Source of the DNA: Modicisalibacter coralii
GTDB lineage: Bacteria > Pseudomonadota > Gammaproteobacteria > Pseudomonadales > Halomonadaceae
Direction of reading: 5' to 3'
Assembly (NCBI RefSeq): GCF_004117855.1
Contig: NZ_QWBW01000006.1
Span: 186,001 to 250,000, forward strand
DNA: 64,000 bases
In this document: positions 12,142 to 64,000 of the stretch, one piece after another
How the letters are laid out: each line of letters starts with the position of its first letter
Numbering within the stretch: the stretch's first letter is position 1
Translations under genes and position numbers: made by a program
Notes under the pieces: generated by a model
The model's database searches: none
Told to the model about the DNA's origin: nothing
The model's input: the letters and a program-made list of their open reading frames with translations, nothing else

Positions 12142-12217
12142 TGGGGTGGATGATGGGGATCGAACCCACGACCACCGGAGCCACAATCCGGGGCTCTACC
12201 ACTGAGCTACATCCACC
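12142..12217 (-). tRNA. tRNA-His (GTG), copy 2
   Basis: 76 bases including an encoded CCA. The cloverleaf is complete: acceptor stem with the extra 5' G (G-1) opposite C73 that is diagnostic for tRNA-His, D arm GCTCAGTGGTAGAGC, anticodon stem CCGGA/TCCGG around GTG, and T arm GTGGGTTCGATCCCC. It is the last gene of the tRNA cluster and identical in sequence to the copy at 12255-12330. Confidence 0.98.
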
Positions 12218-12254
12218 ACGACTCGTATCAGGCGCTAGCATCGAAGCAGGCGAA

Positions 12255-12330
12255 TGGGGTGGATGATGGGGATCGAACCCACGACCACCGGAGCCACAAT
12301 CCGGGGCTCTACCACTGAGCTACATCCACC
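12255..12330 (-). tRNA. tRNA-His (GTG), copy 1
   Basis: Identical 76-base tRNA-His with encoded CCA, 37 bases upstream of the second copy. The spacers between the copies differ, so this is an old or repaired duplication rather than a simple recent tandem duplication of the whole unit. Confidence 0.98.
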
Positions 12331-12397
12331 ATTGTCCTGCATCGATCGTTCGACGAGACCCCAAGGTGCGGGTTCCCGGGCCAGCCGGCCACCAATC

Positions 12398-12474
12398 TGG
12401 CGCGCCCAGCAGGACTCGAACCTGCAACCTACGGCTTAGAAGGCCGTTGCTCTATCCGGTTGAGCTATAGGCGC
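12398..12474 (-). tRNA. tRNA-Arg (TCT)
   Basis: 77 bases including CCA. Acceptor stem GCGCCTA pairs with TGGGCGC with one T-G wobble. Anticodon TCT lies in the stem ACGGC...GCCGT, reading AGA/AGG codons. The T arm GCAGGTTCGAGTCCTGC is canonical. Confidence 0.97.
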
Positions 12475-12561
12475 GCTTTGCCATGGCCTAGCTCTCACAC
12501 CGCCGCTTCGTTCACTACGGCGCGAGTTCCAGCTGAAGCGGGCCAACCTGCCTGCAACAGA

Positions 12562-12638
12562 TGGTCGGGGTAGAGGGATTTGAACCCCCGACATCCTGCT
12601 CCCAAAGCAGGCGCGCTACCAGACTGCGCTATACCCCG
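12562..12638 (-). tRNA. tRNA-Pro (TGG)
   Basis: 77 bases including CCA. The acceptor CGGGGTA pairs with TACCCCG (the C1-G72 pair usual for bacterial tRNA-Pro). Anticodon TGG lies between CCTGC and GCAGG stems, and the T arm GGGGGTTCAAATCCCTC is canonical. It is the first gene of the Pro-Arg-His-His cluster, the same kinds of tRNA as the E. coli argX-hisR-leuT-proM cluster. Confidence 0.97.
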
Positions 12639-63028: not shown

Positions 63029-63057
63029 TTGACAGTCCCGAAGGCGCTCTCTAGAAT
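63029..63057 (+). promoter_or_regulatory. Near-consensus promoter of the metN leader
   Basis: TTGACA (63029-63034) and TAGAAT (63052-63057) are 17 bases apart: perfect -35 and one mismatch in -10. The transcript would start at about 63064, ten bases before the presumed aptamer. Confidence 0.85.
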
Positions 63058-63073
63058 TTCGCGAATCTTCTTC

Positions 63074-63156
63074 AGGCGCCGATTTGTTCCCGGATTGCGG
63101 GCGCCTCCGAGGCCGGCGTTGCGACGCCCGTGTCTCGGAAAGTGCAGCTAAAAGGG
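63074..63156 (+). promoter_or_regulatory. SAM-II-like riboswitch aptamer with long linker
   Basis: SAM-II aptamers are compact H-type pseudoknots that bind S-adenosylmethionine. Here P1 is a 7-bp stem (63074-63080 with 63100-63106). Its loop (63081-63099) begins GATTTG and ends ATTGC, as in the SAM-II loop (GAUUUA...AUUGC). The 3' segment GCAGCTAAAAGGG (63144-63156) matches the conserved GUAGCUAAAAAGGG. Pseudoknot pairs CCC (63089-63091) with GGG (63154-63156) and TGC (63096-63098) with GCA (63144-63146) can form. A 37-base linker (63107-63143) with its own hairpin (CCGAG/CTCGG, GGCGT/ACGCC) replaces the short SAM-II linker. metN lies downstream, as expected for SAM control. Confidence 0.75.
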
Positions 63157-63172
63157 TGTGTCCAGCGTTGAT

Positions 63173-63199
63173 GGCCACCCATTTGGGTGGCCTTTTTTT
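63173..63199 (+). terminator. Intrinsic terminator between riboswitch and metN
   Basis: A perfect 9-bp stem (63173-63181 with 63184-63192) and seven T (63193-63199) form a strong terminator 60 bases before metN. GGGTG at 63154-63158, whose GGG is the 3' strand of the pseudoknot, could also pair with CACCC (63176-63180), giving an antiterminator when SAM is absent. Confidence 0.92.
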
Positions 63200-63258: not shown

Positions 63259-64000
63259 ATGATCACACTCGACAACGTTTCCAAGACCTACGGCACGGGC
63301 GACCGCGCGGTGCGTGCCCTCAAGCCGACCGACCTGCATGTTCCCCAGGGCGCGATTCACGGCGTGATCGGCCTCTCCGGCGCCGGCAAGTCGACCCTGA
63401 TCCGCTGCGTCAACCTGCTAGAACGCCCCACCACCGGCCGGGTGTTCGTCGACGGCGAGGAGCTGTCCGCCCTCGACACGGCGGCCCTCAACCGGGCCCG
63501 CCACCGCATCGGCATGATCTTCCAGCACTTCAACCTGCTCTCGTCGCGCAGCGTGTTCGCCAATGTCGCCCTGCCGCTGGAACTGATGGGCGTCCCCCGG
63601 CGCGAGATCCGCGAGCGCGTCGAACCGCTGCTGGAACTCACCGGGCTCACCGACAAGCGCGACATGTTCCCGGCCCAGCTCTCCGGCGGCCAGAAGCAGC
63701 GCGTGGCGATCGCCCGGGCGCTGGCCAGCCGGCCCAAGGTGCTGCTCTGCGACGAGGCCACCTCGGCGCTCGACCCGCAGACCACCACCGCGATCCTCGA
63801 GCTGCTCCAGGACATCAACCGCAAGCTGGGCCTGACCATCCTGCTGATCACCCACGAGATGGAGGTGGTCAAGTCGATCTGTCACCGGGTCGGGCTGATC
63901 TCGGGGGGCGAACTGGTCGAGGAGGCCGACGTCGGCGATTTCTTCACCGCCCCGGCGACCCGCCTGGGCCGCGACTTCCTCAATGCCTTCCTCGAGCTGG
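63259..64000 (+). CDS. metN: Methionine ABC transporter ATP-binding protein MetN (partial)
   Basis: The first 247 codons of a MetN-type ATPase; the window ends inside it. Walker A GLSGAGKS is at 38-45, the Q loop in [10 protein letters not shown], the ABC signature LSGGQKQR and Walker [14 protein letters not shown] follow, and HE of LITHEME is the switch His. It powers uptake of D- and L-methionine with MetI and MetQ, expected beyond the edge. The C-terminal NIL regulatory domain is also cut off. Expression probably depends on the leader described at 63029-63199. Confidence 0.95.

Follow-up and report, generated by a model that had tools for sequence, protein, structure and literature searches.

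A probable SAM-II riboswitch variant with a hairpin inserted into loop L3 upstream of metN in Halomonadaceae

Introduction

The closest described system to the leader analysed here is the SAM-II riboswitch (RF00521, SAM_alpha; Corbino 2005; structure 2QWY), whose pseudoknot helix, in the accessible part of PMC3764141, is formed by UUGC with GC(U)AA and is accompanied by the triples U11-A45-U21, U12-A46-U20 and G8-G42-C23. The same text gives U10-U12, U20-C23 and G42-A47 as the conserved bases and assigns the reading of the charged sulfur of SAM to U11 and U21, while a single pair, P1a, was predicted by Barrick and Breaker 2007 (PMC2258182, available part). According to the openly available portions of the respective papers, a few SAM-II elements lie outside alphaproteobacteria (Corbino 2005), SAM-II is stated to occur in Gammaproteobacteria (PMC2258182, PMC2704228), and a survey with Rfam models placed SAM_alpha only in Rhizobiales and Rhodobacterales, with none in the Oceanospirillales group (Leyn 2014, PMC4239095).

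Several further systems are related. The SAM-II long-loop RNAs (RF01726; Weinberg 2010) are likewise a SAM-II form and are listed, in the portion of the source at hand, for Bacteroidetes and marine sequences. The metXZ RNA element of betaproteobacteria is presented in the open part of Leyn 2014 (PMC4239095) as a pseudoknot and terminator before metX or metZ. SAM-V and the tandem SAM-II/SAM-V RNAs of Pelagibacter share much of the SAM-II binding core, as far as the available excerpts of those papers state. In published work on Halomonas SAM riboswitches, on SAM-II with metN and on SAM-II in Gammaproteobacteria, represented by open texts and mostly by parts of them, the element reported here is not described.

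The present leader shares with SAM-II the P1 helix, the loop L1, the P2a/P2b pseudoknot and the ligand-contact bases, as well as the promoter just before P1, the terminator after P2 and the methionine gene downstream that the accessible SAM-II literature describes. It differs in having a 34-nt hairpin in place of the 5' part of L3, in its score under the Rfam cut-off, and in its target, which is metN, whereas metY, metA or metX are named for alphaproteobacteria in the sources as available. In contrast to the Pelagibacter tandem, the window holds a single aptamer.

Results

Organisation of the leader

The window, i.e., the whole stretch of DNA analysed, is 64,000 nucleotides long, and the features of its segment 63029-63199 and of the gene downstream are listed below. 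R1 denotes a search model built from 33 family sequences, which it matches by construction.

63029..63057, + strand: sigma-70-type promoter TTGACA-17-TAGAAT, 11/12 consensus matches
63075..63080, + strand: P1 5' strand GGCGCC (pairing kept in relatives; R1 alignment)
63081..63099, + strand: loop L1 GATTTGTTCCCGGATTGCG (GATTTG...ATTGCG), with the U-rich triplex strand GAUUU, the P2a strand CCC at 63089-63091 and the P2b strand UUGC at 63095-63098 (comparison with published SAM-II; relatives)
63099, + strand: P1a base G63099, last base of L1, with partner C63145
63100..63105, + strand: P1 3' strand GGCGCC (pairing kept in relatives; R1 alignment)
63106..63139, + strand: inserted hairpin in loop L3, 34 nt, flush with P1 (UCCGAG.../...CUCGGA; fold score; covariation in relatives)
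63140..63146, + strand: remainder of L3, AAGTGCA, 7 nt
63147..63156, + strand: 3' pseudoknot strand GCTAAAAGGG (P2b GC(U)AA, P2a GGG)
63154..63180, + strand: antiterminator hairpin as proposed, in which GGGUG (63154-63158) pairs with CACCC (63176-63180), along with inner pairs
63157..63180, + strand: 24-mer TGTGTCCAGCGTTGATGGCCACCC between aptamer and terminator, identical in 62/75 distinct metN-linked relatives
63173..63199, + strand: intrinsic terminator GGCCACCC-ATTT-GGGTGGCC (63173-63192) plus T7
63259..64000, + strand: metN, encoding the ATPase of a methionine ABC transporter, truncated at the window end (NCBIfam best match MetN; contig protein)

A letter-by-letter check of 63029-63199 gave the order promoter, P1, 19-nt loop, P1', hairpin, AAGTGCA, 3' pseudoknot strand and strong intrinsic terminator. 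The near-consensus promoter of the preliminary description was confirmed (one found, against a shuffle mean of 0.0, sd 0.2), and the loop beginning with GATTTG and ending with ATTGC, followed by the 3' segment, is present as it had been described. P1 had been put at seven base pairs; six of them (63075-63080/63100-63105) stand, whereas the seventh, A63074-T63106, is only possible and would compete with the first pair of the hairpin. Similarly, the linker with its own hairpin was upheld by covariation of the helix, although the length of 37 bases was not, since L3 counts 41 nt (63106-63146, i.e., the 34-nt hairpin and AAGTGCA).

The ATG of metN at 63259 lies 59 bases beyond the U-run of the terminator. 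The full-length MetN taken from the contig has 347 aa with ABC-ATPase and NIL domains, and the part inside the window falls below the cut-off of the NCBIfam model because the window end cuts the gene. On the contig, a permease gene (metI) overlaps the end of metN, the frame after it (L209:2147-3625) gives no evident metQ and looks membrane-transporter-like by eye, and a divergent riboflavin synthase gene lies upstream of the leader.

The SAM-II core

A letter pattern picked 108 distinct aptamers from 168 loci, of which 75 precede metN and 33 do not, the metN label resting on tblastn to the MetN of the window. The invariance of the pattern letters among the 108 is by construction, so conservation was read from 75 R1-found copies, which stem from 72 sources (60 chosen places on the R1 list and 12 earlier loci), and were located by a model trained on relatives. 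Three of them are extra copies contributed by tandem leaders and some are duplicates, so that 71 rows are distinct. In this set the bases that contact SAM or form triples, all present in the window, are conserved in 74 or 75 of the 75 copies, and the columns of L1 UUU, UUGC and GCUAAA are invariant or deviate in one copy.

Covariation across the metN leaders of relatives, suggested as a check in the preliminary description, was found for P1 and the inserted hairpin, with the pseudoknot nearly invariant. In P1, 99.5% of cells are paired and two pairs change on both sides among 33 rows; the figure is 97.9% in the 71 distinct rows. P2b and P2a are complementary in 33/33 rows, and among the 75 R1-found copies P2b pairs fail in 0 or 1 and the middle P2a pair in 0, while the outer P2a pairs are non-standard in 6 and 9. 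Because P2a and P2b hardly vary, the pseudoknot receives almost no covariation support within the family; a P2a/P2b pseudoknot is thus compatible with the alignments, not proven by them. The TGC-GCA register proposed earlier for the pseudoknot was incorrect, as the helix in the available part of PMC3764141 is UUGC with GC(U)AA, and the compensatory exchange noted with it belongs not to the pseudoknot but to P1a, the single pair that Barrick and Breaker 2007 predicted (PMC2258182, accessible part). This pair reads GC in 67, GU in 4, AU in 3 and AC in 1 of the 75 R1-found copies.

Rfam scores and compact relatives

The gathering cut-offs are 36 bits for RF00521 and 44 bits for RF01726. Against RF00521, which had been named in advance as a refuting test, the window gave a partial match of 18.2 bits over model positions 10-43, under the cut-off and not significant (E 0.21 in the whole-genome search). 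The long-loop model RF01726, proposed for the same check, had no match at the leader at E 10, and the SAM-V model had none within the window at E 10. At gathering threshold Rfam returned from the whole window nothing but four tRNAs; the tRNA genes are clustered on the minus strand at 12145-12638. The best RF01726 match elsewhere in the genome was at chance level (16.3 bits against the cut-off of 44), and other weak matches at the leader (RyhB, Phe leader, isrD and others), mostly on the terminator hairpin and far under their cut-offs, were rejected.

The bridge to SAM-II is given by relatives of the same family that precede the same gene and lack the hairpin. Three of the seven distinct compact metN-linked Halomonadaceae relatives pass RF00521 (L034, 47.8 bits; L036, 38.9 bits; L019, 36.9 bits), and the other four (L020, L040, L042, L049) score 23.3-29.6 bits over the whole model, under the cut-off. 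L034 and L019 retain the downstream block TGTGTCCAGCGTTGA and the terminator, which L036 is without. Because these three pass and the core is conserved, homology to SAM-II is established through them and the failed score of the window is overruled. When 20 loci were tested with RF00521, seven passed, among them none of the six bearing the hairpin (L062, L063, L069, L127, L154, L168); since three compact relatives do pass, the low score is likely due mainly to the hairpin and in second place to sequence drift, four of the seven compact relatives also missing the cut-off. R1 scored the window at 84.6 bits (E 1.8e-21), but the window sequence (L001) is among its 33 rows, so the evidence lies in the homologues rather than in this score.

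Homology and the structural features that could be tested, apart from the Rfam cut-off and the short L3 (11-13 nt in compact relatives, 41 nt with the hairpin in the window), identify the element as a SAM-II RNA with predicted SAM binding. The long L3 is treated as a feature of the variant and not as defining a class.

The hairpin inserted into L3

A linker of at least 22 nt occurs in 68/75 distinct metN-linked aptamers and in 9/33 of the others, the remaining seven metN-linked ones having 11-13 nt. Among the 68 long linkers, the helix begins right after the sixth P1 pair in 52 and ends exactly 7 nt before GCTAAA in 48, and for 55 at most 5/100 shuffles fold as well; the fold of 63107-63147 in the window has z -2.76, with 4/200 shuffles as good. 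Pairing of the arms was found in 397/476 cells, against 265.6 expected (sd 9.7, maximum 294 in 1000 shuffles with arms exchanged among sequences), i.e., 83% of cells against 38-46% with partners slid. All seven helix pairs change on both sides when 33 sequences, of which 28 have helix letters, are aligned with MAFFT (88.3% of cells paired), and again in the 71 distinct model-aligned rows (84.6%), an alignment fitted to the structure.

In a quick MetN tree of 74 rows (80 sampled, two without protein and four too short left out), the compact or hairpin label needs 2 changes against 10.4 in shuffles. The hairpin is present in 62/62 tree rows of the main Halomonadaceae clade, whose branch has a support of 92 and is not starred, and one hairpin copy (L016), with a predicted helix not flush with P1, falls among the compact rows. 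Beyond Halomonadaceae, this site also carries a hairpin in Methyloversatilis (L062, L076, L096, L154), Hydrocarboniphaga (L109, L127), Brachymonas (L100), Hylemonella (L142) and a betaproteobacterial MAG (L126), and in 9/9 of these loci at most 5/100 shuffles fold as well. Further Brachymonas copies, L067 and L104, are compact. That the hairpins are unlike one another and have compact neighbours, rather than a tree, suggests repeated gain of the hairpin outside the family.

Terminator and proposed antiterminator

The terminator of the window (63171-63194) has -18.0 kcal/mol and z -4.1 in the shuffle comparison, and a terminator lies within about 110 nt in 67/75 distinct metN-linked copies. The scan was negative in eight. 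In one of them, L085, a terminator with one mismatch can be seen by eye; the other seven include four close relatives from the genus of the window (L018, L021, L022, L023) that keep the aptamer. In L022 and L023, GG(T)GGAT could pair instead with ATCCCC.

The overlap of GGGTG with CACCC of the terminator, noted in the preliminary description, is real, GGGTG being complementary to the 5' arm of the terminator in 66/67 metN-linked copies with a detected one, although the length of the complementarity is not above chance (6.62 against 6.11), with 3/75 copies standing out. In folds of the growing transcript with P1 forced, GGGUG/CACCC enters the best fold once CACCC is made, and its lack from the bound-state fold is by construction because GGG was barred from pairing. 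The isolated antiterminator has -12.1 kcal/mol against -16.8 to -18.0 kcal/mol for the terminator. At full length with P1 forced, the terminator state (-56.9) and the antiterminator state (-57.3) are equal within error; without any constraint, the best structure contains the terminator and lacks P1 (-59.3) and the centroid has P1, all in secondary-structure folds that cannot represent a pseudoknot. The antiterminator fold is mildly better than shuffles, 9/200 being as good for the window, 36/200 for L019 and 59/200 for L034.

Covariation cannot test the antiterminator because its sequence hardly varies. The identity of the 24-mer also spans the loop of this hairpin, and pairing alone does not explain it. 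In other lineages, the 3' strand has a downstream partner matched by at most 2/40 shuffles in 6/11 out-of-family loci and in 9/32 betaproteobacterial and other loci, e.g., the perfect 9-bp antiterminator GCUAAACAG/CUGUUUAGC before metK (L214, L218), and these partners favour an antiterminator by analogy.

Distribution and downstream genes

In all, 75 distinct aptamer sequences precede metN. Over 151 genomes of the family, R1 matched 111 at E 0.001, and RF00521 matched 17 at E 0.01 with five passing the cut-off; among the five, the copy in G139 is tandem and not linked to metN, and of the 17 at least the one in G006 looks spurious, its match L048 (23.4 bits) having been set aside since it has no GATTT...TTGC...GCTAAA core. 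Across the order, 49/390 genomes matched R1, 13 of them in the family of the window, and the out-of-family loci that were read are compact. In the source genome, the single R1 match at E 0.001 is the copy of the window, and a search with the compact pattern gave no extra SAM-II copies, its 40-base gap excluding the window copy too. A sequence search of 38 genomes matched 25, of which 21 cover the aptamer and four (G011, G016, G034, G036) only the promoter, terminator or short stretches. G011, of the same genus as the window, had no R1 match, and its weak blastn match (L027) was discarded, the surrounding stretch, read as L210, being without the SAM-II pattern.

Best NCBIfam matches downstream of SAM-II cores were MetN (L215), MetK (L218), MetA (L216), MetX (L052), O-succinylhomoserine sulfhydrylase (L116) and MetH (L065, partial), those for MetN, MetA and MetH being below the cut-offs of the models. 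The cores before metK (L214, L218) belong to one genus of another family, NCBIfam having been run on L218. By NCBIfam, compact cores precede metX in Rubrivivax (L052, which passes RF00521) and metZ in Nevskiales (L116), with others assigned by eye (including L060 and L067). The metXZ element is therefore probably SAM-II itself, which we infer from these genes and not from its consensus.

RF00521 passed its cut-off in 30/369 genomes of the class. This class (GTDB) presumably may include former betaproteobacteria. L218 and L219, from other families of the order of the window, pass RF00521 among the nine loci given. Because these two pass and the occurrence is in print (PMC2258182, PMC2704228, available parts), SAM-II in Gammaproteobacteria is no surprise, and the host is not unusual as the preliminary description had it.

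Discussion

We consider it very probable that the leader contains a riboswitch of the SAM-II class, extended by a hairpin that sits at the 5' end of L3 flush with P1, and that this riboswitch acts as a transcriptional OFF switch for metN-metI. The assignment rests on sequence comparison, namely homology to SAM-II, the contact bases, the covarying P1 and linker helix, the terminator and the target gene, from which we infer SAM as the ligand, the antiterminator and the OFF direction. Comparison with relatives thus agrees with the preliminary description in its central claim of a SAM-II-type riboswitch with a linker hairpin and a terminator before metN. At low SAM, GGGUG at the 3' end of the aptamer would pair with CACCC, the 5' arm of the terminator, and RNA polymerase would read through. 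At high SAM, GCUAAAAGGG would be locked in the pseudoknot with L1, so that the GGGUG/CACCC antiterminator could not form, the terminator would fold, and transcription would end ahead of metNI, turning the importer genes off. The OFF-switch mechanism put forward earlier is probably right. Both Corbino 2005 and the prevalence of terminators downstream of SAM-II (PMC2258182) are in line with an OFF direction, as far as the open parts of both papers go. MetJ had no match in any of the 38/38 genomes searched, with a positive E. coli control.

The step at which the leader acts could be a different one. Seven of the 75 distinct metN-linked copies, four of them in the genus of the window, are without an intrinsic terminator, which would fit control of translation or through Rho, yet the window itself has a strong intrinsic terminator, metN starts 59 bases past the U-run, and no clear Shine-Dalgarno sequence is seen by eye in the aptamer or terminator, so we regard this as improbable.

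An aptamer that is SAM-II by descent and now senses another ligand, e.g., SAH or methionine, might be considered because the element controls import rather than synthesis and SAM is a predicted ligand; we give it very little weight against the retention of the SAM-contacting bases, among them U11 and U21, the readers of the charged sulfur. A precedent for loss of function exists in the tandem SAM-II/SAM-V RNA, where, according to the accessible portion of PMC11508383, a linker blocks SAM binding by the SAM-II domain, and the inserted helix could likewise inactivate the aptamer, regulation being achieved by other means. This too is highly unlikely, as 74 or 75 of the 75 R1-found copies retain the contact bases, while the sequences of the hairpins diverge almost completely. 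The SAM-responsive OFF switch for metN-metI is the reading that we retain.

The locus is thus a new structural variant of the known SAM-II class, with a predicted ligand, antiterminator and hairpin function. Our guess is that the inserted helix would stack under P1 and the 7-nt AAGUGCA strand would cross the P1 minor groove. Tentatively, and with somewhat less than even confidence, we propose that the hairpin works as a module of its own, which by stacking under P1 would pre-organise the strand of L3 or tune how fast the RNA folds. On this view it arose at the base of the main Halomonadaceae clade, where 62/62 sampled members keep it, and separately, at the same site, in Methyloversatilis, Hydrocarboniphaga and single Brachymonas, Hylemonella and other betaproteobacterial genomes. 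Aptamers that have or lack the extra helix at this one site form a natural series in which the contribution of L3 to SAM-II folding can be tested directly. Annotation relying on the RF00521 cut-off would miss a riboswitch that probably controls methionine uptake in these halophiles.

Tandem SAM-II/SAM-II leaders were seen in three genomes of one Halomonadaceae genus, g33 (L035:1509-1674:+; L039 and L045, minus strand), and resemble the Pelagibacter SAM-II/SAM-V tandem. They do not precede metN, and a terminator-like hairpin, with a full U-run in L035 only, follows the first copy. Downstream of the second copy lie a ribosome site (AAGGAG in two, GGGAG in L045) and an open frame of 71-79 aa, of which the one tested had no Pfam match. 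An AzlC-like gene follows the tandem in 2/3, Pfam having been run on one.
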